Shown here: piece after piece, positions 1,336 through 58,706 of the stretch | Layout: the number at the start of each line of letters is the position of its first letter | How positions within the stretch are numbered: the first letter of the stretch is position 1 | From: Planctomycetaceae bacterium | GTDB lineage: Bacteria; Planctomycetota; Planctomycetia; Planctomycetales; Planctomycetaceae | Direction of reading: 5' to 3' | Assembly (NCBI GenBank): GCA_021732785.1 | Contig: JAKFUG010000028.1 | Location: 1-64,000 of the forward strand | Length of the DNA stretch: 64,000 nucleotides | The notes under the pieces: generated by a model | What the model saw: only the letters and a program-made list of their open reading frames with translations | Databases searched by the model: none | What the model was told of the DNA's origin: nothing | Translations under genes and position numbers: made by a program

Positions 1336-1424
1336 GCGGAAAGCGGAAGGCTGAAAGCAGAAAGCGGGGTGGATGCACTTGTGGAGGCCTCTTTGCTGTT
1401 CGCTTTGTGCTTTGAGCTTTCCGC
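1336..1424. repeat. Inverted heptamer tandem-repeat element, locus A
   Basis: Left arm 1338-1365 reads as four 7-bp units: GGAAAGC, GGAAGGC, TGAAAGC, AGAAAGC. The right arm 1395-1424, read on the minus strand, is GGAAAGC, TCAAAGC, ACAAAGC, GAACAGC. The arms are therefore degenerate short tandem repeats with period 7, placed head to head across about 30 bp. The element lies in the 298-bp spacer between the divergent substrate-binding and TPR genes. I saw no other gene or RNA in that spacer. Three other loci in this window have the same plan with other heptamers. Confidence 0.7.
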
Positions 1425-1517
1425 ATCCGGCACACCGCAATTGACCACTTCCGCCATTGTGGATACAACCCGGAATGCACGAATTGGCTTTCGGTTATGG
1501 CCACAAGGAGCGCAAGG

Positions 1518-2900
1518 ATGCGTCGCCCGTGGATCTGGTTGGTGTTGTCAACGGCAATGTGCGGATGCGGCTCTCGTGATGGAGCGCCGGCTTCTGCGAC
1601 AACGTCATTGCCGCTGTTGAGCATTCCCGCTTCGAATGACCCGGCCGTCAAAAAGGCGCTGGAGCTTCTCCAGCAGGGGCAGACGGACGAAGCCTTGGCG
1701 ATGGCGACCGCCGCGGTCAATCAGCACCCGGAAAATGCGGCGCTGTACGACGCGCGGGCGCACATCTCCCACGCGGCGGGTCAGATCAACGCCGCCCTGG
1801 CGGACCTACATCGGGCCGTGCAACTGGAACCAAAAAACGCGCGGTATCTGAACAATCGCGGTTTTCTGCTGCTTGGTTTGCACCAGATGGAAGCCGCATA
1901 TGCGGATTTCAATCTCGCGAATCAAAGCGATCCCGAACTCGTGAGCGTTTACAACAATCGAGCCCTCGTGGAGATCACGCGCGGACGCTTCCGCCAGGCG
2001 GTGGTCGATCTCGATGAAGCCTTGAAACGCGATCCGAAATACGTTGATGCGTTGAACAATCATGGATTCGCCCTGATGCAACTCGGACGGCTGGACCGGG
2101 CTCTCGCCGACTTCAACGCCGCCGTGACGTTCAATCCCAAATACACGAATGCGTGGAATAACCGCGGGCTGGTGAAGCGGCAGATGGGCGATCTCGAAGG
2201 AGCCATGCTCGATTTTACTCAGGCAATGTTGCTCGACCCGAACAATCCGAAATACTACGACCATCGCCACGATGTTTACCTGCTGCAGGGCGAGGTGAAG
2301 AAGGCGAAAGAAGACGAGCGGAAGATTCAGTTCCTCGTCGGATTGAAAGCCCTTTCGGAAGCGATCCAGCAAACACCGAAAGAACCGGCGGTTTACCTCG
2401 CTCGGGCCGATCATTACCGCAAGCAGGGTGATGAATCGTCCGCGCGGCGTGACTTCGATCAAGCCGTGACGTTGTCCCCGGCGAATGACACCACGGCGTT
2501 GCTGCGACGGGCCAGTTTCTTGCTCGAAACGAAAAATACTGCTGCGGCCATCGCCGACTGCGAACGGGTGTTGCAATTCGGACCGCATCAATTGGCGCAG
2601 TCGATTCGGGGTGATTGTCGCAAAGCCCAGCGCGACTACGACGGGGCGATTTCCGATTTCGAAGCGTCCAAACGCCTCGACGAAGCCGTGATTGAGACGT
2701 ATGCTTTGAAAGCGGACGATTTTGCCCGTCGCGGTAAGACCGAAGAGGCGGACCGACTTCGGGCCAAAGCGAGCGAATTGACGGCCATGCTGGAAAATTC
2801 GAAAGCAGCCTCCGGTGTCATCGCTCAACCCTTCCCGACTGAAGCGGAAGGAATTGATGTGAAACGAACCGCGGCTGTCGTCCAACCGCTGCCGGAGTGA
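1518..2900 (+). CDS. TPR-repeat lipoprotein
   Basis: The product is 460 residues. I chose the ATG at 1518 because AAGGAG sits seven bases before it; the in-frame ATG at 1497 lacks such a site. The N-terminus (MRRPWIWLVLSTAMCGCGS) looks like a lipoprotein signal ending in a Cys-Gly-Cys cluster. From about residue 40 to 410 the protein is a series of 34-residue tetratricopeptide repeats, with recurring patterns such as YNNRALVEITRGRFRQAVVD and WNNRGLVKRQMGDLEGAMLD. TPR arrays form helical scaffolds for protein-protein contact; here the scaffold would be tethered to a membrane and face outward. No catalytic domain is visible and partners are unknown. It is divergent from the substrate-binding gene and is followed by a long hairpin. 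Confidence 0.85.
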   Translation: MRRPWIWLVLSTAMCGCGSRDGAPASATTSLPLLSIPASNDPAVKKALELLQQGQTDEALAMATAAVNQHPENAALYDARAHISHAAGQINAALADLHRAVQLEPKNARYLNNRGFLLLGLHQMEAAYADFNLANQSDPELVSVYNNRALVEITRGRFRQAVVDLDEALKRDPKYVDALNNHGFALMQLGRLDRALADFNAAVTFNPKYTNAWNNRGLVKRQMGDLEGAMLDFTQAMLLDPNNPKYYDHRHDVYLLQGEVKKAKEDERKIQFLVGLKALSEAIQQTPKEPAVYLARADHYRKQGDESSARRDFDQAVTLSPANDTTALLRRASFLLETKNTAAAIADCERVLQFGPHQLAQSIRGDCRKAQRDYDGAISDFEASKRLDEAVIETYALKADDFARRGKTEEADRLRAKASELTAMLENSKAASGVIAQPFPTEAEGIDVKRTAAVVQPLPE

Positions 2901-2906
2901 AACGAA

Positions 2907-2994
2907 GTCGCCCTGTCGCTCCGCGACAGGAAACGCCGGTGATGACAACGCTTTGAATTGCCTCGGCTTTCCTGTCGCGGAGCGACAGGGCGAC
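2907..2994. repeat. Long inverted repeat, CCTGTCGCTCCGCGACAGG family, copy 1
   Basis: Arms 2907-2933 and 2968-2994 are perfect inverted copies (27 bp) around a 34-bp loop. Each arm is itself palindromic (CCTGTCGC-tcc-GCGACAGG), so it could fold as two small hairpins or one long one. It sits seven bases after the TPR stop codon. A second copy with the same core lies at 20074-20164. Confidence 0.85.
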
Positions 2995-3066
2995 AAAAGC
3001 ATGTTGGAGCGGGGGCTCTGGCATGAACGAGAACAGGATTGGCTCACGGACGGGGGGAGATTCCGC

Positions 3067-3870
3067 ATGGCAGTGTCGTTGCCCAGTAAGATTCAGGGGC
3101 CGGTCTCAGTGATCGGCGACGTTCACGGGCAGGTCGACAAGCTCGAAGCGGTGCTCGATCAATTGGCCGCACGGCCCGATTTCGACCAGCGCTGGCTCGT
3201 CTTCATGGGCGATTTCGTCGACCGCGGTCCCGATCCCAAAGCCGGGATCGACATGTTCCTGCGGTTGCTCAAGCAACACCCGAAAACCACGTCGGTGGCC
3301 GGCAATCACGAATTCGCGATGGGGGCATCGCTCGGCTGGTTTCCCACGGCGGAATATACCAACTGGGGCGAGCGCTGGGTCGCCCATTACGATTCGGACA
3401 CGACGTTCGCCTCGTATGGGGTGGCGCATGGCGATCTGGCCGGGCTGAATGCCGCGATGCCCGCCCGTCATAAAGAATTGTTGCTGCACTTGCCGTGGGT
3501 GGTGGAGCATCCGCAGTTTCTGTTCGTGCATGCGGGACTGGATCCAAATGCTCCCTACGACATGCAGTTGCGAATTTTGCGGCAAAAAGATTTCACGTTG
3601 AACCGCCCGCTGTGGTTGTGTTCAAAAACGTTTGTCGATTCCGATCCGCCGACGGATTGCCCGCTCGCGGTGGTGAGTGGCCATGTCCGCGTCCCCACGG
3701 TGCAGATTCGTCCGAAACGGGTGCTGTGTGACACCACCGGCGGGACCGAAGGCGAACTGAGCTGCGTGCTGTTGCCGGAACGAAAAGTGATTACGTCTGC
3801 CGGTCCCGCGGAACCGATGACCGTCGGTGCGGGCGCTGGAGGCAATGGCTCGTGGTGGAAGTTCTGGTAG
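3067..3870 (+). CDS. Calcineurin-like (PPP family) metallophosphatase
   Basis: The product is 267 residues if it starts at the ATG at 3067, which follows GGGGGAGA; upstream in-frame starts at 2953 and 3001 overlap or abut the hairpin repeat and are less likely. The metal-binding signatures are all present in order: GDVHG at 17-21, GDFVDRG at 48-54, GNHE at 79-82, a later HAGLD, and SGHVRV. This arrangement is typical of bacterial PPP serine/threonine phosphatases and of diadenosine tetraphosphatase (ApaH)-like enzymes. The substrate could be phosphoproteins or a dinucleotide; sequence alone does not decide. The C-terminal 20 residues are Gly-rich and end in WWKFW. A protein kinase lies 5 kb downstream but is not in the same transcription unit. 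Confidence 0.85.
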   Translation: MAVSLPSKIQGPVSVIGDVHGQVDKLEAVLDQLAARPDFDQRWLVFMGDFVDRGPDPKAGIDMFLRLLKQHPKTTSVAGNHEFAMGASLGWFPTAEYTNWGERWVAHYDSDTTFASYGVAHGDLAGLNAAMPARHKELLLHLPWVVEHPQFLFVHAGLDPNAPYDMQLRILRQKDFTLNRPLWLCSKTFVDSDPPTDCPLAVVSGHVRVPTVQIRPKRVLCDTTGGTEGELSCVLLPERKVITSAGPAEPMTVGAGAGGNGSWWKFW

Positions 3871-3936
3871 TTTTGCTCGCGCTTTGCAAAATCTCAGCGC
3901 AGGCGGTCTCTCGGGACCCGTCGCTTGCGCTTCGGG

Positions 3937-5217
3937 CTAGTTTGCCGTCACCGCGCGCCGCGCGGCCTGCCGGTGAAACGCGGCGTCTCGTTCATCGCCG
4001 GTGACTTTGAAGGCGTGCCGCAACAGGTGCTCTTGCGGTTCCGTCAGCGTCTTGCCGCGGCGTTCCATGGCAGCTCGCGCGGTGGCCAATCCGTCTTCCA
4101 GGGGGAAACCATCGGCGAGTTTGCCGTGCCAGACTCGGGAAAAAGACGGAATGTGCTTCGGCAGCAACTCACCGGCGGGCAAGACCTGGCACATGATGCC
4201 GACGGACGTCCCCGTGTTGAAGCAACTGCCGATGGCCGTTTTCGTGTGATCGCCGATGAAGCAGCCGACTTTCTTCTGGCCGCTTTCGATCGCTTCGCCG
4301 ATGAGCGGCACCTTCACAGTCGAGTAATCGTTTTTCAAATCACTGTTCGTGGTGAGCGCGCCGAGATTGCACCACGGTCCGACATAACCGTGACCGAGAA
4401 AGCCGTCGTGGTATTTGTTGACGTAACCGTGCAGGATCGCCCCTTCGATCTCGCCACCGACGCGGCAGACCGGGCCGATCGATGTCCCTTCGCGCAGATT
4501 GGTGCGGAACAATTGTGACTCGCGACCGATGTAGCACGGTCCTTCCAATCGCGTGAACGCCTGGACCATCGCGCCGACATCGACAAAGACCGGACCTTTG
4601 CGGGCGTCGATCACCACGAACGGGTCGATGGACGCCGTGGCATCCACATAGACATCGTTCAACGATCCCACGACCGCGGCTTGCGTTCCCGCCAAATCTT
4701 GTGGTGCGGATTTCGGCCGGGCGCGAAAATCGGCGATCAGTTGTTCGCTGTTGTGTGCAATCAAGTCCCACGGAAATTGTGCCAGTTTCCCGGCCGCTTT
4801 CACACGACGACGGCTGCGTGCCAGTTGCTCGGCGGCGGTCGCACAATCCTGCATCAGAAAGAGTGGCGTTTCCCACGGTTCGACGGTGATCCACGCCACT
4901 TCGCCATCGATCAATCCCGCGGCGTCGGGATCACACGCCGCTAAATCGCCGGGCGATGCCAGCCACCGCCCATTCAGCAGTAACGTTCTCCCCTGCGACA
5001 ACCATCGGGGGGCGTTGATCTGAGCTTCCGGATGATCTTCGAGGTAACTGTCGACAAGTTCAGGGCGGCAGAAAGCGCCCCATTCGGTGATGGGGAGAAA
5101 ACGCATGGCCCGTTCGCGTGCCGAAAAATGGCCGCAGAGGAGTTCAAACACCGGCCGCAACCACGTCAACGGCAAGAAGTTGACGGATTTATCATCTTCG
5201 AACAGGGCGATACGCAT
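3937..5217 (-). CDS. GlmU-like sugar nucleotidyltransferase / left-handed beta-helix acyltransferase
   Basis: The 426-residue product starts at the ATG at 5217, which is preceded by GGAGG with a six-base spacer; a longer frame upstream has no such site. The N-terminal half (MRIALFEDD, FLPLTWLRPVFELLCG) is a divergent nucleotidyltransferase-like region. From about residue 175 there are hexapeptide-type turns (VVGSLNDVYVDATASIDPFVVID, EGPCYIGRESQLFRTNLREGTSIG), followed by HGYVNKYHDGFLGHGYVG and NTGTSVG, as in the alternative GlmU-type proteins of Bacteroidetes and planctomycetes. The likely role is making or modifying a UDP-amino sugar such as UDP-GlcNAc for cell envelope synthesis. Substrate is inferred from the family only. 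The canonical nucleotidyltransferase LAAGxGTRM loop is not visible, which makes the first half's activity uncertain. Confidence 0.75.
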   Translation of the reverse strand: MRIALFEDDKSVNFLPLTWLRPVFELLCGHFSARERAMRFLPITEWGAFCRPELVDSYLEDHPEAQINAPRWLSQGRTLLLNGRWLASPGDLAACDPDAAGLIDGEVAWITVEPWETPLFLMQDCATAAEQLARSRRRVKAAGKLAQFPWDLIAHNSEQLIADFRARPKSAPQDLAGTQAAVVGSLNDVYVDATASIDPFVVIDARKGPVFVDVGAMVQAFTRLEGPCYIGRESQLFRTNLREGTSIGPVCRVGGEIEGAILHGYVNKYHDGFLGHGYVGPWCNLGALTTNSDLKNDYSTVKVPLIGEAIESGQKKVGCFIGDHTKTAIGSCFNTGTSVGIMCQVLPAGELLPKHIPSFSRVWHGKLADGFPLEDGLATARAAMERRGKTLTEPQEHLLRHAFKVTGDERDAAFHRQAARRAVTAN

Positions 5218-5287
5218 CGGAATCCTCCATGAATCCGCGGGAATGTATCGCAATCCTGCCGATGTGCGAAGATGAACCCACGCCATC

Positions 5288-5381
5288 GTTTAGCCGCGAC
5301 CCGGTAGGGCAACGCCGGGTTGAGCGGACGACATGCGCCGTATGCACCATCTGGCGCTCCCCTGCCGGTGCGCGGCTAAAC
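5288..5381. repeat. Imperfect long inverted repeat upstream of gap
   Basis: The left arm begins GTTTAGCCGCG at 5288 and the right arm ends CGCGGCTAAAC at 5381. The outer 11 bp are perfect; pairing continues imperfectly for about 35 bp through CCGG/CCGG and AGGG/CCCT blocks. It fills most of the spacer between the divergent GlmU-like gene and gap and ends 13 bp before the gap promoter. Confidence 0.65.
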
Positions 5382-5394
5382 GGCGGCGCTAAAC

Positions 5395-5423
5395 TTGTGG
5401 TGCGACACGACGTTCCCTATAAT
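5395..5423 (+). promoter_or_regulatory. Sigma-70-like promoter for gap
   Basis: TTGTGG at 5395-5400 and TATAAT at 5418-5423 are separated by 17 bp. The -10 box is a perfect consensus match and lies about 100 bp before the gap start, leaving a roughly 95-base leader. No terminator-like fold was noticed in the leader. Confidence 0.6.
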
Positions 5424-5524
5424 TCCGCTGGTTCGTACACTGAAACCGTGTCGCGGAGACGACTTGTGATCCGCCCCCGTGTGGGACGATCCCGTGTCCG
5501 GTTTCGTTTGTCAGGAGTTGATCT

Positions 5525-6550
5525 GTGGCCCCGGTTCGCGTCGGTATTAATGGTTTCGGTCGGATTGGTCGCATTGCGTTTCGGGCGATGGCGGCCCGTC
5601 CCAGCGAATTTGAAATTGTCGCCATCAACGACTTGGGCAAGCCGGACGCTCTGGCCACCCTCTTGAAATATGACAGCGTTCAAGGTCGGTTCCCCGGCAC
5701 CGTGACCTGCGAAGGCGATTCGATCATCGTCAACGGCAAGGCGGTCAAAGTGGTCGCCGAACGCGATCCGTCGAAGCTGCCGTGGAAAGATCTCGGCGTC
5801 GAAATCGCCCTCGAATCGACCGGGTTCTTCACCGGCCGGGCGAAGGATGGCAAGCCGGGTTACGACAGCCACATCGCGGCTGGTGCTCGTAAGGTGATTC
5901 TGTCGGCCCCGGCCAAAGATAAGCCGGACATGACCGTCGTGATGGGGGTGAACTGCGATCAGCTCACCGCCGAACACAAGACGATCTCGAATGCCAGTTG
6001 TACGACGAACTGCCTCGCACCGGTCGCCATGATTCTGCAGGAGAAGTTCGGCATCGCCCGCGGATTGATGACGACTTGCCATGCTTACACCAACGACCAG
6101 CGCGTGTCGGATCAGTTGCACGACAATATCTACCGTTCCCGTGCGGCAGCGATCAACATCATTCCGACCACCACAGGTGCCGCGAAGGCTGTGGGTGAAG
6201 TGTTGCCGGCACTGAACGGCAAGCTCACGGGGATTTCGCTTCGCGTGCCGGTGCCGGTCGGCAGCATTGTCGACCTCGTGGTGGAAGTCGAAAAGGACGT
6301 CACCGTTGAGGAAATCAATGCCGCAATGAAGGAAGCCTCGGAAGGCCGCCTGAAGGGCATCCTCGAATACTGTGTCGACCCGATCGTCTCCAGTGACGTC
6401 ATTGGCAACCCTGCCAGCAGCATCTTCCACGCCGAGTGGACGATGGTGATGCAGAAGCGGATGGTCAAGATCCTGAGTTGGTACGATAACGAGTTCGGTT
6501 ACTCAAACCGCACCGCCGACCTGATCGCCAAGGTGGCGAAGCTCGGCTAA
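5525..6550 (+). CDS. gap: Type I glyceraldehyde-3-phosphate dehydrogenase
   Basis: The 341-residue product begins at a GTG preceded by CAGGAG with a good spacer. It has the Rossmann start [10 protein letters not shown] (7-16), the acidic NDLG segment that favours NAD binding (35-38), and the active site SNASCTTNC with catalytic Cys159. Later conserved blocks are [25 protein letters not shown] and [12 protein letters not shown]. Full family length. It catalyses the NAD-dependent, phosphate-dependent oxidation of glyceraldehyde 3-phosphate in glycolysis and the reverse step in gluconeogenesis. It is followed by a hairpin with a T-rich tail and then by rpe, another sugar-phosphate enzyme. Confidence 0.97.
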
Positions 6551-6580
6551 TCTCGCGGTACGGATGTGATTGACCCCGGA

Positions 6581-6613
6581 AGCCCAGGGACTGCCGTCCC
6601 TGGGTTTCTGTTT
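6581..6613 (+). terminator. Hairpin with T-rich tail after gap (CCCAGGGA type)
   Basis: GCCCAGGGAC (6582-6591) pairs with GTCCCTGGGT (6596-6605) around a four-base loop, followed by TTCTGTTT. This fits a Rho-independent terminator or attenuator between gap and rpe. Near-identical stems occur at 11297-11318 and 33011-33037. Confidence 0.6.
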
Positions 6614-6632
6614 AACGGATGTGGATCGTTCG

Positions 6633-7316: not shown

Positions 7317-7324
7317 ACCCAGAG

Positions 7325-8179
7325 ATGGACACGATGAGTACCGGACCGACCACGGAATCCCAAGACGACAGCCTCCCCAAAAAGCGGGGCGTGCCCGAAG
7401 GCCTCTGGATTCGTTGTGATTCCTGTCACAACACGGTGTTCCGCGCGCAGGTGGAACGCAATCTCCATCTGTGCCCGGACTGTGGCCACCATTTTACGGT
7501 TCCCGGGCAAGTCCGCGTGCAGCAATTGCTGGACGAAGACAGCTTCGAGGAATGGTGGACCGATCTCGAACCAAGCGATCCCCTCGGTTTTGTGGACTCC
7601 AAACCGTACAAAGACCGGCTGAAGAGCGAACAGAAGCGCACCGGCATGAAAGAAGCCTGCGTCGTCGGCCGCGGCTATTTGCGCGGTCGACCGTTGGTGC
7701 TCGGCCTCACCGATTCCGCGTTCATCATGGGGAGCATGGGTTCCGTCGTCGGCGAGAAATTGACGCGCGCCGTCGAACAAGCCACCGCCATGAAGTTGCC
7801 GCTGGTCATTGTCAGCGGTTCCGGCGGCGGGGCCCGTATGCACGAAGGCATTCTGTCGCTGATGCAGATGGGCAAAGTCTCCGCGGCATTGGCCCGTTAC
7901 CAGAAGAGCGGCGGTTTCTTCATCTCCGTGCTGACGAATCCCACGATGGGGGGCGTTGCCGCCAGCTTTGCTTCTTTGGGGGATATCGTGCTGGCCGAGC
8001 CGAAAGCCCTCATCGGTTTTGCCGGCCCGCGCGTCGTGAAAGCGACGTGCAAAATCGAATTGCCGCCGGGCTTTCAGACCAGCGAATTTCTGATGCAACA
8101 CGGTTTCGTCGACCGCATCGTCGCCCGCCCGCAACTCCGCGCCGAGATTTCCAAGCTGATCGATTATTGCAGCATGTGA
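7325..8179 (+). CDS. accD: Acetyl-CoA carboxylase carboxyltransferase subunit beta
   Basis: The 284-residue product starts nine bases after the rpe stop; an ATG three codons later (7334) is an alternative. It has the four-cysteine zinc ribbon typical of AccD (C31, C34, C50, C53), then the crotonase-like carboxyltransferase fold with [32 protein letters not shown] and [13 protein letters not shown]. Together with AccA it moves a carboxyl group from biotin carboxyl carrier protein to acetyl-CoA, forming malonyl-CoA for fatty acid synthesis. accA is not in this window, so the two subunits are encoded apart. The short gap to rpe suggests cotranscription. Confidence 0.95.
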
Positions 8180-8182
8180 ATG

Positions 8183-8331
8183 GGCTGAGGGTCGATGGCT
8201 AAGGGCTAAGAGACGGAAGAAATGCCGCTCTTTTGGTCGTCGGCTGCTCTTGACGGCATCGCGTGATACATTGACGGAATCGCGGGGTGTTCTGCCTCCG
8301 GCCCTTAGCTCTCAGCCTTTAGCCATAAGCC
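8183..8331. repeat. Inverted heptamer tandem-repeat element, locus B (GGCTAAG type)
   Basis: The left arm 8183-8210 is GGCTGAG, GGTCGAT, GGCTAAG, GGCTAAG. The right arm 8301-8331 read on the minus strand is GGCTTAT, GGCTAAA, GGCTGAG, AGCTAAG, GGC. The element occupies nearly the whole 158-bp spacer between accD and the kinase, and its right edge is six bases from the kinase start codon, which has no purine-rich ribosome-binding site of its own. The same heptamer recurs at 58604-58706. Confidence 0.8.
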
Positions 8332-8337
8332 ATCCCC

Positions 8338-9216
8338 ATGGACTTCTTCAAAAAGCTCTTCGCCCGCAAGCCGAAGATCGAGCGCGTGGATGTCGCCAAG
8401 CGGTTCGAGCTGCTCGCGCGGACCGGGCAAGGGAGCATGTCGAAGGTCTGGCGGGCGAAGGACTACATGTCCGGCCGCGTGGTGGCGCTGAAACTGCTCG
8501 ACATCGACAAGACCAAACGCTTTGAAGCCCGTTTCTACGGCATGAAAGTCCGCAAGCCGACCGAAGGCGAAGTCGCCGTTCAACTGAAGCACGAGCACAT
8601 TGTCCAGACCTTCGAGCACGGCATCACGACGAACAACGAACAATATCTGGTGATGGAATTCGTCGAAGGCGTCGGTCTCAGCTATCTGATCGATCTGCAA
8701 AATGACGTGATGAAACAGAACCGGCTGCGGTTCGTGATCGAGCTCGGCGAAGCGATCGAATACTTTCATCGACAGAACTGGATTCATCGCGACCTCTGCC
8801 CGCGGAACGTGCTGCTCGACCGGCAATGGTCGATCAAGCTCATCGATTTTGGGCTCGTCGTGCCCAATACGGAGTTGTTTCAACTGCCGGGCAATCGTAC
8901 GGGGACCGCGAATTACATGGCCCCGGAACTCATCAAACGGATGCGGACCGACCAGCGGATCGACATCTTTTCGTATGCGGTGATGTGTTACGAAATGTAC
9001 GCCCGCCGGTTGCCGTGGGACGCCGCGGAAACACTGGAAGCGGTCATGCAGCACATCAATCAGCCTCCGGTCGATTTGCAGAAAACGGCGAAAGGAATCG
9101 ACCCGCAAGTGGCCGAAACGATCATGCGCGGCCTCGCCGTCCGTCCTGATGAGCGCTGGCAAACCATGGGACAAATGCTGGAACAGTTCCGGGAAGCGTA
9201 CGAGCGGCAGGCGTGA
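8338..9216 (+). CDS. Serine/threonine-type protein kinase, variant catalytic loop
   Basis: The 292-residue protein is a stand-alone kinase domain without a membrane segment or C-terminal sensor. Visible motifs are the glycine loop TGQGSMSKVW (29-38), the ATP-binding lysine in VALKLL (K52), HRDLCPRN (150-157), DFG (170-172) and MAPEL (194-198). The catalytic loop lacks the lysine that Ser/Thr kinases place after HRDL; a cysteine (C154) is there, and the downstream RN resembles the tyrosine kinase pattern. The catalytic Asp152 and metal-binding Asn157 remain, so activity is plausible. It probably phosphorylates cytoplasmic proteins; targets are unknown. It sits between accD and a helicase, flanked on both sides by inverted heptamer repeats. 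Confidence 0.9.
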   Translation: MDFFKKLFARKPKIERVDVAKRFELLARTGQGSMSKVWRAKDYMSGRVVALKLLDIDKTKRFEARFYGMKVRKPTEGEVAVQLKHEHIVQTFEHGITTNNEQYLVMEFVEGVGLSYLIDLQNDVMKQNRLRFVIELGEAIEYFHRQNWIHRDLCPRNVLLDRQWSIKLIDFGLVVPNTELFQLPGNRTGTANYMAPELIKRMRTDQRIDIFSYAVMCYEMYARRLPWDAAETLEAVMQHINQPPVDLQKTAKGIDPQVAETIMRGLAVRPDERWQTMGQMLEQFREAYERQA

Positions 9217-9225
9217 TGATCCGGA

Positions 9226-9302
9226 GTGGGCAGGGGACAGTGGACGGCCGGAGAGAAAGCCGTTCCAACTTCCCCTCTGGCTGTCCCCTATCCACTTTTC
9301 CC
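9226..9302. repeat. Inverted heptamer tandem-repeat element, locus C (GGGGACA type)
   Basis: The left arm 9226-9246 is GTGGGCA, GGGGACA, GTGGACG. The right arm 9269-9302 on the minus strand is GGGAAAA, GTGGATA, GGGGACA, GCCAGAG, GGGAAG. It fills the spacer between the kinase stop and the helicase start and ends 12 bases before that ATG. Confidence 0.7.
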
Positions 9303-9314: not shown

Positions 9315-11285
9315 ATGAGTCACGGATTGACAACACCGCCGCGCCCCACTTCCTCTGCGGACGGTCTCAATCCGGCTCAGCGGGATGCCGTCATCACCAT
9401 GCGTGGCCCGCTGCTGGTTCTTGCCGGGGCAGGCACAGGCAAGACACGCGTGATCACCATGCGGATGGCAGAACTGATTCGGCAAGGTGTCCCCCCGGAA
9501 CGCATCCTGTCGGTCACCTTCACGAACAAAGCCGCGAAGGAAATGCAGGAACGGACGCAGGCGATTCTCGGTCGACGCATGAAGACCCGGCCGGCAATCT
9601 CAACGTTTCACGCGTACTGCGTCCGCGTGCTGCGGGATGAAATCGAAGCGCTGGGATATCCGTCGCAGTTCGTCATCTATGACCGGGGTGATCAGGAATC
9701 CGCGGCTCGTAAAGCACTGCGGGATATCAAGGTGCCCGATGCCGCGCTGCGACCGGGCGATTTGTTGTCGCAGATCAGCCGCTGGAAGACCGCGGGGGTG
9801 GCCCCCGATGAAGCGTCGCAGTTCATCGACGATGACCGCGGGTATCTCGCCGCGGCGGGGTATCGCCGGTATCAGGCTTCGCTGCGCGCCGCGGGGTCGG
9901 TGGACTTCGACGATTTGTTGATGCTCACGTTGCGACTGTTCGACGAGTTCCCGGAAGTTCTCGAACGGCAGCAGAATCGGTTCGAGCATGTGCAGATCGA
10001 CGAGTATCAAGACACGAATGAGTTGCAGTTCCGCATCGTCGCCGAGTTAGTCCGACCGCACCGCAACCTGTGCGTGGTGGGCGATGACGACCAATCAATC
10101 TACGGCTGGCGCGGAGCCGAGATCAAACACATCCTCGGTTTCCAACAGCAATTCCCCGGGGCGAAAGTCGTCCGGTTGCAGGACAACTATCGCTGCACGA
10201 CGCAGATCATCGATGTCGCCAACAAGCTGGTGAAGTGCAACCGCGGCCGGCATGAGAAGACGCTGATTGCCCACAAATCCGGGTCGGATGTCCTGTTCAA
10301 ACCGTATCCCGACGAACAAGCCGAAGCGGAAGGTGTGGTGCGGGACATCAACTATCTGGTCACGCAGCTCAACATCCCCCCGGCGGATATCGCGATTCTC
10401 TTTCGCACCAACGAACAGCCGCGGATCTTTGAAACCGAACTGCGGCGACTGCGTGTGCCGTACACGCTCATCGGCGGGCAATCGTTTTTTGATCGCCGCG
10501 AGGTCCGCGACATCCTTGCCTACATGAAGGTGTTGTCGAACCCGCAGGACGAAGTCTCTCTGCTGCGAATCATCAATGTCCCCACACGCGGCATCGGCGA
10601 CGCGGCGATGGATAAGCTGCTCAACGAAGCGGTCAAATCCGGCCGGACGATCTGGTCCGTCGCTCCGGAGTTGGTGGCGACGAAAACGATCTCCGCGAAA
10701 ACCTACGGATCGGTGCAACGGTTTCATGCGCTGCTGGAGTCCTGGCGACCGCGGTTTGCTGAAAAGGGCGCGATGCTGGTCGATCTCTTTCGCCAGTTCC
10801 TCAAAGAAATCGACTACGACAGCGAAATCGAAAAACAGTACGCCGATCAACAGCAACAGGTCGCGCGGAAAGCCGTCGTCGAAGAATGTCTTAGCGCGGT
10901 GAAAGAGTATCAGTCGCGGTCGCTGCGGCCGTCACTGGGCGGTTTCCTCGAAGAAACGGCTTTGACCGGGAAGGACGACAGTTTCGGTGAGAATCCGGAA
11001 CTCGAACGTCCCGCTGTGAAATTGATGACGTTGCACAGCGCGAAGGGCCTCGAATTCCCGCGGGTCTATCTTGTCGGCTTGGAAGAAGGGATTCTGCCTC
11101 ATCAACGCTCGATTGATGGCGGAACGACGGAAGGAATTGAAGAAGAACGCCGGCTGGCGTATGTCGGTGCGACCCGGGCCCGCGATTTCCTGACGATTTC
11201 GTGGGCCCAAGTGCGGCTTAAATGGGGCAAGATGAAGCCCACGATCCCCTCGCGCTTCCTCGCCGAAATGCAACCCGAAGAATAA
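9315..11285 (+). CDS. UvrD/Rep-type superfamily 1 DNA helicase
   Basis: The product is 656 residues from the ATG at 9315; the frame extends upstream to 9213, but that part would translate the heptamer repeat. Helicase motifs are in order: LNPAQRDAV (Q motif), AGAGTGKTR (Walker A), SVTFTNKAAKEM (Ia), QIDEYQDTN (II), VGDDDQSIYGWRGA (III), then LQDNYRC, TLHSAKGLEFPRVYLVGLEEG (V) and EERRLAYVGATRA (VI). It unwinds DNA 3' to 5' with ATP and would act in repair or replication restart. It is somewhat shorter than Escherichia coli UvrD (720 residues), with the difference at the C-terminus after motif VI, so calling it pcrA, uvrD or rep would be a guess. Confidence 0.93.
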   Translation: MSHGLTTPPRPTSSADGLNPAQRDAVITMRGPLLVLAGAGTGKTRVITMRMAELIRQGVPPERILSVTFTNKAAKEMQERTQAILGRRMKTRPAISTFHAYCVRVLRDEIEALGYPSQFVIYDRGDQESAARKALRDIKVPDAALRPGDLLSQISRWKTAGVAPDEASQFIDDDRGYLAAAGYRRYQASLRAAGSVDFDDLLMLTLRLFDEFPEVLERQQNRFEHVQIDEYQDTNELQFRIVAELVRPHRNLCVVGDDDQSIYGWRGAEIKHILGFQQQFPGAKVVRLQDNYRCTTQIIDVANKLVKCNRGRHEKTLIAHKSGSDVLFKPYPDEQAEAEGVVRDINYLVTQLNIPPADIAILFRTNEQPRIFETELRRLRVPYTLIGGQSFFDRREVRDILAYMKVLSNPQDEVSLLRIINVPTRGIGDAAMDKLLNEAVKSGRTIWSVAPELVATKTISAKTYGSVQRFHALLESWRPRFAEKGAMLVDLFRQFLKEIDYDSEIEKQYADQQQQVARKAVVEECLSAVKEYQSRSLRPSLGGFLEETALTGKDDSFGENPELERPAVKLMTLHSAKGLEFPRVYLVGLEEGILPHQRSIDGGTTEGIEEERRLAYVGATRARDFLTISWAQVRLKWGKMKPTIPSRFLAEMQPEE

Positions 11286-15268: not shown

Positions 15269-16051
15269 ATGAGGTTTGGTTTTTCCACGCTCTTCGTGTT
15301 GATGGTTGCGTCCCCTGGTTTCGCTGCGGAACCGCAAGGAACCGTTGTGCTTCACGGCGGTGGGTCCGTGGATTCGGCCGTGCGCGATAAATTTCTGGAA
15401 CTGGCGGGGGGCAAGAACGCTCGCCTGCTCGTGATCCCGACCGCCGATACCGATACGCCGTATGATGACGGCCGGCTGGAAATCTGGCGTCGACGTTCGC
15501 CGGCATCGGTCGCCCTGTTACACGCTTCCACTCATACCGAAGCGGAACGCGAGGCTTTTGCGGAACCACTGAAGACCGCGACCGGCGTGTGGATCAGCGG
15601 CGGATATCAATCAAAACTGGCGAGCGTTTATCTCCGCACTCCCGTGGAACGAGAACTCGCGGCGCTCCTCAAACGGGGTGGCGTCATCGGCGGCACCTCC
15701 GCCGGCGCGGCGATTCAAAGCCGGGTGATGTTGACTCGCGGTGATATGCTGGAAGGTTTCGATCACGTCCCGGCGACGATTGTCGACCAGCATTTTCTCG
15801 CCCGGAATCGGCAGGAGCGTCTGTGGCACGCACTCGCCCGACATCCGAAATACATCGGCATCGGCATCGACGAGGACACGACCGCCATTATCACGGGCAA
15901 CCGGCTCACCGTCATGGGTGAATCGACCGTTTCCATTTGTTCCGCGCCGCGCCAGGGAGACCGCAAGCTGCGGCAACTGAAGGATGGCGAGCAACTCGAT
16001 TTGAGCACGCTGCGAATGGAACTCACCGGCAACGAAGCCAACGCCGAATGA
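15269..16051 (+). CDS. Cyanophycinase-like S51 family peptidase with signal peptide
   Basis: The 260-residue product starts at the ATG at 15269, behind AAGGA. Residues 1-20 form a signal peptide ending in GFAA. The mature part shows VVLHGGGS, LLVIPTADTDTP, GVWISGGYQS and the nucleophile motif GGTSAGAAI with Ser144, which defines the S51 serine peptidases. Cyanophycinase splits the Asp-Arg storage polymer cyanophycin into dipeptides; other S51 members cut Asp-containing peptides. Export suggests it works on extracellular or periplasmic polymer rather than a cell's own cytoplasmic granule. No cyanophycin synthetase is in the window, so the substrate is unproven. Confidence 0.88.
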   Translation: MRFGFSTLFVLMVASPGFAAEPQGTVVLHGGGSVDSAVRDKFLELAGGKNARLLVIPTADTDTPYDDGRLEIWRRRSPASVALLHASTHTEAEREAFAEPLKTATGVWISGGYQSKLASVYLRTPVERELAALLKRGGVIGGTSAGAAIQSRVMLTRGDMLEGFDHVPATIVDQHFLARNRQERLWHALARHPKYIGIGIDEDTTAIITGNRLTVMGESTVSICSAPRQGDRKLRQLKDGEQLDLSTLRMELTGNEANAE

Positions 16052-52399: not shown

Positions 52400-52421
52400 A
52401 ACCCGGCTGGCCGTCAGGTCG

Positions 52422-53768: not shown

Positions 53769-53894
53769 TCGTCTCGCTTGTTCGCAGCCTTTAGAAAGCG
53801 CTTACTCCCGGAATATACTCGTGCGGTGGCAAGCGCGTCAGCCTGGAGCAACTTCCTGCCGGTTTCGGTATGGGGTCCGTTTGAATCCAAAGGC

Positions 53895-53966
53895 GTCGGG
53901 GCGGGGGCCCCGACCTAAGATTTTGAATTCATTCTCACATCCATAGGTCGGGGCCCCCGCCCCGAC
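53895..53966. repeat. Inverted repeat, GTCGGGGC family, copy 2
   Basis: Arms 53895-53916 and 53945-53966 are perfect 22-bp inverted copies around a 28-bp loop, which contains TTTTGAATTCATT. The core (GTCGGGGC-GGGGCCCCGACCT) matches the repeat at 18511-18582, and both have TTGAATTC close by. It lies 40 bases upstream of the enolase-superfamily gene. Confidence 0.85.
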
Positions 53967-54006
53967 TCTTCAAACGAACCCACCACCCCGGTTTCATAGG
54001 TGACTG

Positions 54007-55128
54007 ATGAAGATTACCGCTGTCCGCGTCTTCCCCGTCTGCATTCCGCTCAAGCCCGAACGCCGGATGATCTCTGCGCTCGGCAAACACGACGTCTCGC
54101 CATTCGTGCTGATCCGGGTCGAAACCGATGACGGCGTGTTTGGTGTCGGCGAAGCGACCGTCACGCCGCGCTGGAGTGGCGAAACGATGTGGGGAGCCGC
54201 GGCGATCATCGAACACGTTTTCGCGCCGGTGCTCATCGGCGTCGATCCGTGCGATCACTTCGAGATCGATCGCCGGATGGACGCCGTTGCCGTCGACAAC
54301 TGGTTTGCCAAAGCCGCGATGGAAATGGCGTGCTGGGACATCGCCGGTCGTGCCGCCGGGCAGCCGGTTTATCAGTTGCTCGGCGGAGCCCAACGGGGAC
54401 TGACGATCCGCAACCGCTTCTCATTGGGAGCCTACACGCCCGATGTCGCCGCCCAACGCGCTACGGAGCGCGTGGCCGCAGGATTCGACACGATCAAGGT
54501 GAAAGTGGGCACGATTCCCGAGGAAGACGTCGCACGGGTGCAAGCGGTCCGAGCCGCCATCGGTCCGAACATCGCGCTGACGATTGATGCCAACGGTGGT
54601 TGGAACGCCGAGCAGGCCCGCTGGTCGCTGGAGCGATTGGCGAGCTGCAACGTCGCCCTCGTCGAACAACCGTTACCGCGCGGGAACTACACCGAATTGA
54701 GGGAACTGCGGCGCGCGACGGGGTGTCGCATTCTCGCCGATGAAAGCTGTTTTGATGAAGTCCACGCGCGCGAATTGTTCGCTCATGAATGCTGCGATGT
54801 GCTCAGCTTGTACCCCGGCAAGCAGGGGGGCCTCCGCAAGGCGATGCGGATCGCGAAGCTGGCCGAAGACCACGGCATTCCGTGTACCATCGGCTCGAAC
54901 CTCGAATGGGACATCGGGGCGGCAACCATGCTCCACTTCATCGTGGCGACGAAAAACATGAACGTGGAAAACTACCCCGGCGATTGCCTCGGGCCGTTTT
55001 ATCACGAGGTGTCGATCGCCAGAAATCCGTTGAAGATCGACGGTCCATTCAGCACGTTGCACGACAGTCCGGGACTGGGGATCGATGTCGATTGGGACGT
55101 CGTGGAACGGTACCGCGCCAAAAACTAA
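54007..55128 (+). CDS. Mandelate racemase/muconate lactonizing-type enzyme
   Basis: The 373-residue product starts MKITAVRVFPVCIPLKPERRM, which matches the muconate cycloisomerase/dipeptide epimerase-like group. The barrel has KVKVG near 165 (KxK, with K165 and K167), TIDANGGW (metal Asp), VEQPLPRG (metal Glu) and LADES (metal Asp), and the C-terminal SNLEWDIGAATMLHF. Full family length. It abstracts a proton alpha to a carboxylate, giving cycloisomerisation, racemisation or dehydration. The exact substrate cannot be assigned by eye. It is a stand-alone gene between two long inverted repeats. Confidence 0.9.
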   Translation: MKITAVRVFPVCIPLKPERRMISALGKHDVSPFVLIRVETDDGVFGVGEATVTPRWSGETMWGAAAIIEHVFAPVLIGVDPCDHFEIDRRMDAVAVDNWFAKAAMEMACWDIAGRAAGQPVYQLLGGAQRGLTIRNRFSLGAYTPDVAAQRATERVAAGFDTIKVKVGTIPEEDVARVQAVRAAIGPNIALTIDANGGWNAEQARWSLERLASCNVALVEQPLPRGNYTELRELRRATGCRILADESCFDEVHARELFAHECCDVLSLYPGKQGGLRKAMRIAKLAEDHGIPCTIGSNLEWDIGAATMLHFIVATKNMNVENYPGDCLGPFYHEVSIARNPLKIDGPFSTLHDSPGLGIDVDWDVVERYRAKN

Positions 55129-55130
55129 CG

Positions 55131-55225
55131 GCCGGCTGTGCCACTGCTTCGTCCGCGAAGCAGTGCCGAGTGCTTCAAAAGGCGCTGCGAAGACACTGTT
55201 TCGCGGACGAAACAGTGGCACGGCT
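55131..55225. repeat. Imperfect inverted repeat with GCCACTG and CAGTG arms
   Basis: The left arm from 55131 contains GCCACTGCTTCGTCCGCGAA and the right arm ends at 55225; the two pair imperfectly over about 30-38 bp, with the segment TTCGTCCGCGAA matching. It follows the MR/MLE gene stop by two bases. Each arm also contains a smaller palindrome (TTCGTCCGCGAA). Confidence 0.7.
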
Positions 55226-55360
55226 TGTCATTTACTACAAAATGAAAAGACCATGATTTCGGTCCAACGATGGCATCCGGAAGCCGCGACCGCTGGTATG
55301 ATCGTAAGGCACGGAATGATTCACCATTGATTTGCGTCCACGTGAAAGACCCGCGCTCGC

Positions 55361-56422
55361 ATGCCGCTGTTGAACTGGTTGCCGTTGGAATATCTGCTGG
55401 GCATGGGAGCATGGTTGGCCGCGCTGGGCATCGCGGCATGGATGTTGTTGCGCTGGCGGCAATCGCGGCGTCGCGCAAAGCGGTCACTGCGCGGTCCGCA
55501 TGTCGGGTTAGCCGTCTGGATGGTCCTCGTCGCGCTCACCGCACCCGAACTGCTGTGTGCCCTCTTCTACGATGCGACCGATTCCTTCAGTCAGACGAAC
55601 GTCTCTCGCCGCTGGTTTGAGCGGCATGTGAATCCCAATCGGGCCGGTTATCGCGATGATAGGGAACTGCCGCAATCGCGACTCAGCCATCGCAAGTATG
55701 TTGCGTTTGCCGGAGATAGTTTTACATTCGGACATGGAGTGCGCAACGTCGGCGATCGCTTCAGCGACCGTGTGGGACGCGAACTGAAGAACGAGAACGT
55801 CGTCGCGTTCAACGTCGCCCTGCCGGGGGTCGATATCCGGCAGTTGGTCAATGCCTTGCTGCTCGATTTCGATCAGAATTCCGTGCCGATCGATGTGCTG
55901 GTTTACACGTTTGTGCCGAATGATATCGAGTATCTCGATGAGCGTACGGCGGCATTTTATCAGCAGCGTGCCGGACGCGACCCCGCCTTCTTTCTCTGGA
56001 AAAACACGTACTTTTACAACTTGCTGTATCACCGGGTCATGAATTGGATGGGATCGAAATCGAACGATTACTATGGTTACTTAACGGCATCCTACGAAGA
56101 CGGCGAGCCGTGGGATCAGTTTGCCACCAAGCTGAAGCAACTCGATGGGTGGTGCCTTGCGCGGAAGGCAAAATTGCAGGTGGTGATTTTTCCGTTTCTC
56201 ACCTCACTGGGAGAACACGACCGGTTTCTTCCCGCATATGCCAAAATGCGTGAGCATTGCCGTGAGCACAACATTCCGTGCGTCGATTTGACGCCGATCA
56301 TGACGGCGCATCAACGTGAAGGTTTGGTTGTGAGCCGGTTCGATGCCCATCCCAACGAACGGGCCCACGCCCTGGCGGCGGAAGCGATCGCACCCGCCGT
56401 GCGTGATTTGCTGAAACCGTAA
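55361..56422 (+). CDS. SGNH/GDSL hydrolase with N-terminal membrane helices
   Basis: The 353-residue product has two hydrophobic segments, near 8-30 (LEYLLGMGAWLAALGIAAWMLL) and 48-68 (VGLAVWMVLVALTAPELLCAL), followed by the catalytic domain. VAFAGDSFTFGHGV carries the nucleophile Ser of the GDS motif, and the late FDAHPNERAHALAAEAI holds the Asp-x-x-His pair. These enzymes remove acyl or other ester groups; membrane-bound ones can act on lipids or cell-wall polymers. The central VYTFVPNDIEYLDERT supplies the oxyanion Asn. Its stop codon is inside a hairpin shared with the uvrC-like gene. Confidence 0.9.
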   Translation: MPLLNWLPLEYLLGMGAWLAALGIAAWMLLRWRQSRRRAKRSLRGPHVGLAVWMVLVALTAPELLCALFYDATDSFSQTNVSRRWFERHVNPNRAGYRDDRELPQSRLSHRKYVAFAGDSFTFGHGVRNVGDRFSDRVGRELKNENVVAFNVALPGVDIRQLVNALLLDFDQNSVPIDVLVYTFVPNDIEYLDERTAAFYQQRAGRDPAFFLWKNTYFYNLLYHRVMNWMGSKSNDYYGYLTASYEDGEPWDQFATKLKQLDGWCLARKAKLQVVIFPFLTSLGEHDRFLPAYAKMREHCREHNIPCVDLTPIMTAHQREGLVVSRFDAHPNERAHALAAEAIAPAVRDLLKP

Positions 56423-56435
56423 CACACGGTTTCAG
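56411..56435. terminator. Hairpin spanning both stop codons of convergent genes
   Basis: CTGAAACCGT (56411-56420) pairs with ACGGTTTCAG (56426-56435) around five bases. It contains the TAA of the SGNH gene (56420-56422) and the TCA complement of the UvrC-like stop (56432-56434). It would serve as a terminator in both directions. Confidence 0.7.
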
Positions 56436-57772
56436 TCGTCAAACGTCGTCTTCTTCCGCAGCAGGTGATGGTACTGCTGTGCGAACCGGTGGGCTTCATC
56501 GCGAACGTATTGCAAGAGCCGCAGCGCGAACGAATGCCGACTGAGGAGCTTTGGCTCGGATTGACCGGGCAGAAAGATTTCTTCTTCGCGCTTGGCAAGG
56601 GAGATCACGAACGGGGGCTGGATGCCGGTCCCTTCGAACGCCGCCATCGCGGAACTGAGCTGCCCTTTGCCGCCGTCGATCAGCAGGATGTTGGGAAACG
56701 CTTCGCCTTCCTGCTCCAACCGGCGAAACCGGCGGCTGACCACTTCCCGCATCGAGGCGAAATCATCGACGCCATCGACCGTGCGGATTTTGAACCGCTT
56801 GTAACCCGGTTTGAACGGCAGCCCGTCGATGAACTGCACGCAACTGGCAACGGTCTCGCCGCCCTGCAAATGTGCGATGTCCATACCTTCGATGCGCCGC
56901 GGCAACTCGGGAAGCTCAAAGATCTTTTGCAGTCCGCGCACGCCGCGCTTCGGGTCGATCTGAAAGACTTCCGGTTGCGCGTGCTCGCGCAGGTCGCCCC
57001 GCAGGTTGAGGTTTTCCAAAGCCGTGATCTGGTCGCGCAGCCGGGCCGCTTTTTCAAATTTCAACTCTTGGGCCGCGGCCGCCATTTCGGCCCGCAGTTC
57101 CTTGAACAAGGACGCTTTCTTGCCGTCGAGGAACATAATCAGCCGGCGAATGTCACGGCGGTAATCTTCTTTGGTAATTCGCAAATTACACGGGGCCGTG
57201 CATTGTTGAATGCTCGCGAGGAGACACGGACGGAACCACCGCCAGCGCTCTTCCTCCGGCTTGATGTCGAGCGCGCAGTTGCGGAACCGAAAGATTTGTT
57301 GCAGGACCGCAATCGCGCCGCGAAGTTTGCGGGCATTGGTAAACGGTCCATACAACTTCGTGCCGCGCGGTCGGGGTTTGCGGGTGAATTCGACGCGCGG
57401 GAACGGTTCGCGCACATAGATTTGCAGGTAGGGAAAAGTCTTGTCGTCCTTCAGTTCCGTGTTGAACCGCGGCTGGACATCTTTTACCAGCCGCGCTTCG
57501 AGCAGCAGGGCGTCGACTTCGCTGTCGGTGGTGATGAAATCGAGATCGCAGATTTCCGGAACGAGATCGCGCGTGCGAATATCCGTCAGCGCCGGCTTGC
57601 TGAAATAGCTCGAGGCGCGACTCCGCAGATTGACCGCTTTTCCGATGTAGATCACGCGACCAACGGCGTCTTTCATCAGGTAGACGCCGGGCGTCGTGGG
57701 AAAAGTCTTCACTTTTTCACGCGGATCGGCCGGTTCCGGCAGAGCGGCGTCAGCAGTGGGTCCTGCGGACAT
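56432..57772 (-). CDS. Short UvrC-like excinuclease subunit
   Basis: The 446-residue protein has a GIY-YIG nuclease domain (PGVYLMKDAVGRVIYIGKAVNLRSR, TDSEVDALLLEARLVKDVQPRFN), a UVR domain near 225-250 and the RNase H-like C-terminal half (RRIEGMDIAHLQGGETVASCV, ILLIDGGKGQLSSAMA). UvrC makes the dual incisions around a lesion in nucleotide excision repair. Two parts of the standard 600-residue protein are absent: about 100 residues between the UVR and RNase H-like parts, and the C-terminal HhH2 pair, since the chain ends at RKKTTFDD. It may be a UvrC paralogue. It lies 65 bases downstream of a CvpA gene. Confidence 0.9.
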   Translation of the reverse strand: MSAGPTADAALPEPADPREKVKTFPTTPGVYLMKDAVGRVIYIGKAVNLRSRASSYFSKPALTDIRTRDLVPEICDLDFITTDSEVDALLLEARLVKDVQPRFNTELKDDKTFPYLQIYVREPFPRVEFTRKPRPRGTKLYGPFTNARKLRGAIAVLQQIFRFRNCALDIKPEEERWRWFRPCLLASIQQCTAPCNLRITKEDYRRDIRRLIMFLDGKKASLFKELRAEMAAAAQELKFEKAARLRDQITALENLNLRGDLREHAQPEVFQIDPKRGVRGLQKIFELPELPRRIEGMDIAHLQGGETVASCVQFIDGLPFKPGYKRFKIRTVDGVDDFASMREVVSRRFRRLEQEGEAFPNILLIDGGKGQLSSAMAAFEGTGIQPPFVISLAKREEEIFLPGQSEPKLLSRHSFALRLLQYVRDEAHRFAQQYHHLLRKKTTFDD

Positions 57773-57837
57773 GGTTCCTTCCTGGGCTGGTCAAATGGAA
57801 ACGCCCGCCCTGGCGATTTCCACTGGTCTGCGAACGA

Positions 57838-58596
57838 TCAGAAGCCGGGTGCTGCTGTTCCGCCGCCCGACGGAGCCACGGGGGCGGGAACGGCTCCCCC
57901 TCCACCGCCGACGGGCCGCGGAGCCGCCGTCGGGATGACCGGAGCCGCAGCGCCACCGTACAGCAACGCCCGTCGCGTGGCATAGCGAATCGGAAACGAC
58001 GACCACGTATTGTTCGGATACGGACTGCTTTGCTCGCCCACCAGTTCGTAACGGCCATCAAACGAATGCGGGGTTGTGGACAAGCCGCTCACCTGCAGTC
58101 CGAGATCGAATCGCGCTAACGATTTCTCACTGATGTACTGCACGAACGCGATCCACTGCCGATCGGGAGCCGCCATGTTGAACAAATTGGCACGCTCCGG
58201 TTTGAAACCCAAGAACTCGCGGGGCAGCGGTGCGGTGTGCAAGGCCGTCAGCAGGAATGCCATCGTGACATACCCTGCGGCGGCACCGAACAGATAACGG
58301 CCGATGGTGTCCACGATCCCGGGCACCTGGATATACGTCGGTGCGATTCTCTCGGTCCCCATGCGAAAGGCGAAGACGAAGGCAATGAACAATCCCACGA
58401 GGGTGATCATGTCCCACTTGTCGTCCCATTCCCGCACGGTTTTTGCCAGAAAGATCGCCGCCGGTTCGTAGAAGTTCATGGCGACCAGGCCCGCCAGCAC
58501 GACGGACAGAAACGTCACGCCCGCACTCCAGGCACCGTCGTTCGACACCATAAAGGCGACGCCCGCGACAACAGCAATCAGAATCAGGTCGATCAT
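57838..58596 (-). CDS. CvpA-family membrane protein
   Basis: The 252-residue product has four hydrophobic segments in the first 120 residues (LILIAVVAGVAFMV, GVTFLSVVLAGLVAMNFY, MITLVGLFIAFVFAF, YLFGAAAGYVTMAFLLTAL), typical of the CvpA/colicin V production family, whose molecular role is unclear. The tail after about 195 is rich in Pro, Ala and Gly (PTAAPRPVGGGGGAVPAPVAPSGGG). The gene starts eight bases from an inverted heptamer element and is upstream of the uvrC-like gene. Confidence 0.8.
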   Translation of the reverse strand: MIDLILIAVVAGVAFMVSNDGAWSAGVTFLSVVLAGLVAMNFYEPAAIFLAKTVREWDDKWDMITLVGLFIAFVFAFRMGTERIAPTYIQVPGIVDTIGRYLFGAAAGYVTMAFLLTALHTAPLPREFLGFKPERANLFNMAAPDRQWIAFVQYISEKSLARFDLGLQVSGLSTTPHSFDGRYELVGEQSSPYPNNTWSSFPIRYATRRALLYGGAAAPVIPTAAPRPVGGGGGAVPAPVAPSGGGTAAPGF

Positions 58597-58603
58597 GGAG
58601 TCG

Positions 58604-58706
58604 CTTATGGCTAAGGGCTAAGGGCTAAGGGGCGGAGGGTTGGAAGTCGCGGGTTGATGGACATTTTTCTCTGTCCCTTAGCCCTTAGCTCTTGGCCCTC
58701 GGCATC
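58604..58706. repeat. Inverted heptamer tandem-repeat element, locus D (GGCTAAG type)
   Basis: The left arm 58609-58629 contains three perfect tandem copies of GGCTAAG. The right arm 58671-58706 on the minus strand reads GGATGCC, GAGGGCC, AAGAGCT, AAGGGCT, AAGGGAC. The same GGCTAAG unit is used at locus B. It fills the spacer between two minus-strand genes and ends eight bases from the CvpA start. Confidence 0.8.

Follow-up and report, generated by a model that had tools for sequence, protein, structure and literature searches.

We analysed a 64,000-nucleotide window from a Planctomycetaceae bacterium (assembly GCA_021732785.1, contig JAKFUG010000028.1, positions 1 to 64,000), in which four loci each carry two runs of degenerate 7-bp units facing each other, and followed this layout through the source genome (G000) and its relatives. 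The runs are modules that are dispersed in many copies, with units in a recurrent order and a facing polarity that is fixed in G000 and in G003, a member of another genus of the same family. The modules are patchily common to two genera and are sited in unconstrained DNA, namely intergenic spacers and linkers within genes. The reading that we favour, and consider probable rather than secure, is that they belong to dispersed DNA elements built of heptamer modules, resembling either REPINs (paired repetitive extragenic palindromic (REP) sequences) or the palindromic elements of Rickettsia. An element would comprise two facing modules of approximately 30 to 80 nt each, a module being an ordered string of related heptamers (here called a script) that is mostly purine-rich towards the loop. 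Paired, hairpin-capable units of this kind would be copied into new sites, much in the manner of REPINs or Rickettsia palindromic elements, and the number of heptamers would then drift via replication slippage, so that pairs decay, leaving single arms and mixed pairs. Effects on adjoining mRNAs would be a by-product.

Among long simple repeats in bacteria, heptamers rank with the commonest, and there is no agreed cause. Our results suggest that heptamer arrays belong, in at least some cases, to dispersed elements and are not the outcome of local slippage. They also show such elements within proteins, as in-frame linkers. G000 offers a test bed, combining a dozen recurrent words in one layout with fixed polarity and with scripts that cross genera.

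Abundance, scripts and facing polarity

The G000 sample comprised 864 kb (L025-L044, L114-L133 and the window), and period and pair counts were compared with one Markov-1 sequence. The window alone has five period-7 regions against 0 to 4 for other periods, which by itself is suggestive, so the proof rests on the genome sample. There, the test set beforehand, a 7-bp period above background, gave 81 period-7 regions, compared with 4 to 10 regions for each of the control periods (4, 5, 8, 10, 11, 13, 16, 17, 19 and 20) and 59 for the harmonic period 14. The Markov-1 control had seven period-7 regions and no inverted pairs, against 36 merged inverted pairs in G000. An inverted partner lay within 200 bp of 32 of the 44 period-7 regions in 464 kb, so these are not direct, unpaired arrays. 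A 220 kb sample of G003 contained 27 period-7 regions (0 to 4 for other periods) and six pairs. The sequence-only reading had seen one architecture behind differing words, and this is confirmed: inverted pairs of degenerate heptamers occur far above chance. Small samples of G014 (another genus) and G012 showed no period-7 excess (five regions versus six of period 8 in 39 kb, and one region in 40 kb, respectively). The first 20 kb of G003 held ten period-7 regions and no scored pair, and the first samples of other relatives had a scored pair in 5 of 20 stretches (4 to 20 kb each).

Arm words in G000 fall into 41 rotation classes, 12 of them recurrent, and the commonest among the 30 classes shown are AGAGTCG, AAAGTGC, AAGGGCT, AAATCCG, AAATTCC and AGGGTTG. 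Within a family, units keep a recurrent order. The 21-mer GTGAAAAATGCAAAGTGCAAA of the GTGCAAA family has 16 copies in G000 and 13 in G003 and is absent from the other 146 of 148 genomes searched, which include the congener G001; the second congener, G002 (64% complete), was outside this set. The reversed 21-mer had no matches. By eye, GTGCAAA modules of G000 and G003 are nearly identical across approximately 45 nt, from near CAGTGCAAA to near ATGGAAGA, and their flanks outside this span are unrelated. An exact 14-mer, GGCTAAGGGCTAAG, was found 15 times in G000 (overlaps counted), eight times in G002 and once in G001, while the remaining 37 of the 40 genomes had no match. A test of unit order gave p ≤ 0.05 for 47 of 63 pairs, a figure biased upward because the limits of the arms had been fitted to the real alignment; with the same bias, an element's own arms scored only moderately above same-family arms of other loci. 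An inner motif common to different words (MRGARAA; 26 of 110 arms versus 11 in mononucleotide shuffles) partly reflects purine bias and is not claimed.

Arm orientation was scored by the purine content of period-7 regions, comparing neighbours up to 250 bp apart. Neighbouring pairs in G000 were facing in 25 cases, opposite in none and tandem in one, with eight more having an arm of unclear orientation; the corresponding numbers for G003 were six, none, one and four. Purine-rich runs thus aim at each other in 31 of 33 fully oriented pairs, and the reverse was never seen. The same analysis gave no pairs for periods 8, 10, 11 and 13. Most facing pairs in G000 (23/25) have the same word in both arms, and at least two of the 25, along with two of the six in G003, join non-pairing arms of different words (scores 4, 6, 8 and 8). 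One locus appears by eye to combine a GTGCAAA left arm with a GGCTAAG-type right arm (L362). Single arms were assessed on 28 GTGCAAA loci. Among the 15 distinct loci in G000 (L366 repeats L364), ten have a partner, two of these approximately 0.5 kb away, and five are unpartnered, one with a weak partial match. In 25 of the 27 modules that could be counted, a gene edge is closer to the outer end than to the inner end, at starts and stops alike (one locus without a right-hand gene was left out). This bias is partly expected for paired modules since the inner distance spans the partner.

Several composite arrangements were noted by eye. At L100 (G003:C1:1-20000), positions 10718-10889 and 15817-15961 have composite arms with two heptamer vocabularies in series and in fixed order, the same composite forming the left arm at one site and the right arm at the other. 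At L002:1479-1721 (C5 of the source genome), a GGCTAAG pair encloses a nested GTGCAAA pair, and the loops of L303 and L304 also seem to contain nested repeats. Two sets of copies (L025:11858-11973 with L030:5536-5656, and L374 with L380) have similar flanks and arms that differ by whole heptamers.

The AATTCCA family has a wider distribution. An exact three-unit pattern was found in at least 117 stretches, whose titles name Acidobacteria, Bacteroidetes, Cyanobacteria, Verrucomicrobia, Chloroflexi, Calditrichaeota, Gammaproteobacteria, Parcubacteria-type and other bacteria. We analysed 80 among the matches listed, of which 33 have an inverted partner (27 to the right and 6 to the left) and 47 have none, a count made without a chance control. 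A 4-nt phase shift and a defined inner end mark the extended script: in 12 chosen G000 copies they occur in 9 and 12, respectively, and at 20 loci of five other genomes, found with a longer pattern, in 14 and 15. Among the 80 matches listed, a set that overlaps these 20 loci, the numbers are 9 and 6. A reversed-string control gave 0. Homology of the extended script across phyla was considered and toned down. A near-identical locus (L294/L297) occurs in genomes titled Acidobacteria and Chrysiogenales, so such titles may not stand for separate phyla. A phylum scan with a strict three-unit AATTCC pattern recovered 5 of 392 genomes and is too strict to show spread. A viral link was also considered and rejected; of ten matches of TTCCAARTTCCAATGNCC in viral contigs, nine have no inverted partner. 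The loop of the AATTCCA element at L292 (G424) is approximately 190 nt long and has further inverted repeats by eye.

Copies in coding sequence and in related genomes

Elements also occur as in-frame parts of genes. A pair at L031:15135-15257 lies within a 511-aa open reading frame (ORF) with class II (D, K, N) tRNA-synthetase domains, which we take to be an asparaginyl-tRNA synthetase. The linker that it occupies is longer than in nine aligned relatives (a tenth, L352, was outside the alignment) and has 24 more residues than in G001. An ORF of 2,359 aa with ketoacyl-synthase, acyl-transferase and FabA-like domains, whose limits are partly resolved (L391:11450-18529, C28 of the source genome), carries several period-7 pairs and single arms that are read through without stops. 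The aligned region of G002 has an open frame of 2,336 codons with a partly different set of elements. An in-frame GGCTAAG pair is also contained in a 1,732-aa DUF7133 ORF (L399:13984-19182). In all three ORFs the GGCTAAG copies are in the same reading frame, giving the peptide GLRAKG...QPLALS. Among 63 elements, 14 have no open frame out of six and 24 have one, compared with 17 of 391 intergenic 105-mers (not length-matched) without an open frame. With so few open frames in many elements, a single usable frame is expected.

Where G000 and G002 align (68 to 90% DNA identity), two GGCTAAG pairs are present in both genomes, with loops changing faster. An AATTCCA pair is found in G000 only, a GAATAGC pair is found in G002 only, and one G000 linker with a GGTTGAG pair has an unrelated counterpart of similar length in G002. 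This alignment indicates species-specific gain or replacement of elements at aligned sites. By eye, L014 and L016 (C14 of G002) have GGCTAAG pairs between sequences resembling tRNA genes.

We also compared the leaders of the kinase and CvpA-like genes that follow elements in the window. Among 22 kinase-homologue loci from 22 genomes, which need not all share one upstream gene, a pair was scored only in G000 (GGCTAAG) and G014 (GGTTGAG). In the spacer between GspE and CvpA, G014 has a single arm (L086), G012 has a TAGC-type pair recognised by eye only (L079), and G001 and G003 have no element.

The window loci and competing explanations

Direct reading confirmed two facing heptamer runs at all four window loci (1336-1424, 8183-8331, 9226-9302 and 58604-58706). 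Their best period-7 scores in a 21-base window are 17, 15, 14 and 19, respectively, where the 99.9th percentile across the window is 14. The first, second and fourth are therefore clear by period and 9226-9302, whose score equals that percentile, is by itself borderline. Its arms outscore every one of 300 shuffles in six of eight comparisons with other G000 copies (L125 and L132). Tandem Repeats Finder reported period-7 arrays at 1336-1367, 1402-1420, 58609-58631 and 58675-58699, and three more, shorter ones elsewhere in the window. RNA folds are stronger than dinucleotide shuffles at all four loci (z of -4.5, -3.3, -2.1 and -6.4, in order of position), as expected of any imperfect palindrome.

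The first element lies in a divergent spacer, according to our own gene caller, and consists of purine-rich GCNGAAA-type heptamers at 1330..1371 (+) and an inverted GCNGAAA-type arm 15 nt away at 1387..1433 (-), both of which are period-7 regions. The second begins immediately past the stop of a carboxyl-transferase-domain gene (7325-8179, PF01039) with a GGCTAAG-type arm at 8182..8210 (+) and closes with the inverted arm at 8301..8335 (-), 2 nt 5' of the ATG of a kinase gene (8338-9216, PF00069); both arms are period-7 regions. Its loop (8211..8300) contains ATACATTGA, which by eye, and without a significance test, is common to a loop in the same spacer of G014 (L063), and is possibly old spacer. 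The third element has a GTGGACA/GGGGACA-type left arm at 9226..9256 (+), with a weak period by direct reading and score, and an inverted GTGGACA-type right arm at 9269..9302 (-), to which the copies in L125 and L132 are related. It precedes a UvrD-like helicase gene with an in-frame ATG at 9315 by our count. The fourth has three GGCTAAG units at 58609..58637 (+), identified by Tandem Repeats Finder and in our element listing, on the side of a downstream CvpA-like gene (57838..58596, minus strand, PF02674), and an inverted GGCTAAG-type arm at 58669..58697 (-) on the side of an upstream type II/IV secretion ATPase gene (58708..60552, minus strand, PF00437). The latter three elements directly precede a start codon, as originally noted (8338 for the kinase, 58596 for the CvpA-like gene), and each equally occupies the gap behind an upstream stop codon.

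For genomic context, genes were called with a simple purpose-written caller (662 genes, 78% coding). The 36 G000 pairs comprise 25 co-directional, 5 divergent, 3 convergent and 2 genic cases and one at a stretch end; gaps of at least 60 bp number 318 co-directional, 100 divergent and 60 convergent. Gene avoidance aside, context shows no clear bias. Twenty of the 25 co-directional pairs are closer to the upstream stop (median 4 nt) than to the downstream start (median 38 nt). On the coding strand, the stem columns of these 25 pairs show 913 matches out of 1,088, with 43 G-U, 44 A-C and 88 other mismatches. G-U is thus not in excess over A-C, giving no sign of selection for pairing on the transcribed strand. 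These data bear on the proposal of the sequence-only reading that the elements form leader RNA hairpins governing translation of the next gene. Three of the window elements do occupy the gap from a stop to the start that follows, all four fold better than shuffles, and Xanthomonas repeats are mostly transcribed, according to PMC4692102. Set against this are the proximity to upstream stops, the G-U count, the convergent and divergent spacers, the copies within genes, the single, mixed and non-matching arms, and the restriction of kinase-homologue pairs to two genomes with differing words. Compensatory change was also not seen by eye at the shared locus L294/L297, where unit number varies in both arms without compensation (left arm +7 nt, right arm -18 nt). 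We therefore regard a leader switch as highly improbable, and annotation should not treat such elements as leader switches. The short distance past the upstream stop and the strong folds would suit REP-like 3'-end hairpins, kept for protecting or terminating the upstream mRNA. This is slightly less probable still, given the absence of G-U bias, the copies within genes and divergent spacers, and the turnover among relatives.

Two further explanations concern how the arrays arose. Local polymerase slippage, with inverted pairing from local template switching, would account for copies that differ by whole units by eye (L025/L030 and L294/L297), and earlier work cited in the accessible part of PMC4679880 ranked heptamers first among long simple repeats in most genomes and proposed slippage. 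A purely local origin predicts neither the same ordered script at many loci and in two genera, nor the fixed phase shift and inner end of the AATTCCA family, nor a facing polarity kept even in mixed-word pairs, and is thus unlikely. Alternatively, a templated 3'-end addition system might add heptamer modules at each end of a DNA break before the ends are joined. Facing arms would then be a scar of repair, their vocabulary dictated by the templates, and this would explain fixed polarity, mixed-word as well as same-word pairs, single arms and gene-edge placement. The polarity of mixed pairs, the outer-end bias of GTGCAAA modules (with the caveat given above), the replacement and not splitting of spacers at aligned sites, and the unrelated appearance of G000 loops are in keeping with it. 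Opposing it are loops that look conserved by eye in Aminicenantes-titled copies, a kinase loop that may retain old spacer, the prevalence of same-word pairs in G000, and the fact that no enzyme or template turned up; we consider it very unlikely.

Dispersal of REPIN-like or Rickettsia-like elements remains the reading that we prefer, and several results weigh against it. No target-site duplication was detected: direct flank similarity averaged 5.7 to 5.8 in 64 elements, compared with an inverted-flank null of 5.7, although short adjacent duplications would escape since the flanks began at least 5 nt outside the arms. Neither a clean empty site nor a duplication was seen in the aligned G000/G002 region. 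Twelve of 13 GTGCAAA loci in G003 have no same-family partner within approximately 1.5 kb on each side, so what moves may be something other than the pair. Loops of G000 copies look unrelated to each other by eye, and other words in the 80 AATTCCA matches listed lack facing polarity (4 facing, 3 opposite and 5 tandem). Y1 transposase genes are present in 12 of 13 genomes searched, and a period-7 region lies near none of the three fetched (of nine) Y1 loci in G000. Two of three fetched loci in G003 have such regions, where local density (27 per 220 kb) predicts approximately 0.4 per locus. A Y1 link is not supported by these few loci. Inverted flank extension in the 64 elements averaged 5.8 to 6.0 versus 5.7 for mismatched pairs, with 2 to 4 strong cases against 1.8 to 2.7 expected. 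Terminal inverted repeats as in a miniature inverted-repeat transposable element are present in a loose sense.

Relation to known repeat systems

Intergenic heptamer arrays are familiar from cyanobacteria as short tandemly repeated repetitive (STRR) sequences, which are direct. The TAACTGA heptamers of Beggiatoaceae likewise form intergenic direct arrays, with one inverted case in 170 sets in the accessible part of PMC4679880. Both resemble the G000 elements in having tandem 7-bp units, which in G000 stand above background, and, as far as those descriptions extend, differ in being direct where G000 copies are mostly inverted. In Chloroflexus, GATAGRA satellites comprise many arrays of one heptamer word per genome, and inverted pairing is not mentioned in the available portion of PMC6749651. 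We recognised no account of such elements in planctomycetes in a mainly open-access literature, judged mostly by titles and the openings of abstracts.

REP doublets and REPINs share with the G000 elements two inverted, head-to-head modules, same-type and mixed pairs, and singletons (available parts of PMC3733652 and PMC3116915). REPs are short palindromes tagged with GTAG or CGTC, of which the GTAG type is linked to a transposase and is reported from a planctomycete, and the accessible text of PMC3733652 does not use the word 'heptamer'; G000 modules are heptamer runs. Rickettsia palindromic elements are approximately 150 bp long, with several families per genome and in-frame copies in unrelated genes, a feature found also in G000, with a recurrent peptide in three ORFs. 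In what is available of PMC10969869 they are not described as heptamer-built, and G000 copies are mostly intergenic.

A close parallel is found in Xanthomonas. The sequence-only reading set a paired inverted layout apart from the direct heptameric repeats of cyanobacteria, yet such a layout is not new: degenerate GGGAATC heptamers form close convergent pairs in two Xanthomonas genomes (70 in one and 75 in the other). Most of these are intergenic, lying between aligned genes and closer to the 5' one, and their length varies among relatives (accessible part of PMC4692102). Both systems thus have intergenic, convergent pairs of degenerate heptamers. Xanthomonas uses one word, in that account, and G000 has 12 recurrent word classes, with a GGGANTN word of the Xanthomonas type not among the commonest of those shown. 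A G-quadruplex was proposed for Xanthomonas, whereas several G000 words have no G runs and others do (GGGCTAA). The part of PMC4692102 available has no mention of in-frame copies that yield a recurrent peptide, of mixed-word pairs or of scripts shared across genera. Inverted pairs of one heptamer are therefore already known from Xanthomonas, and the G000 elements are a variant of that layout.

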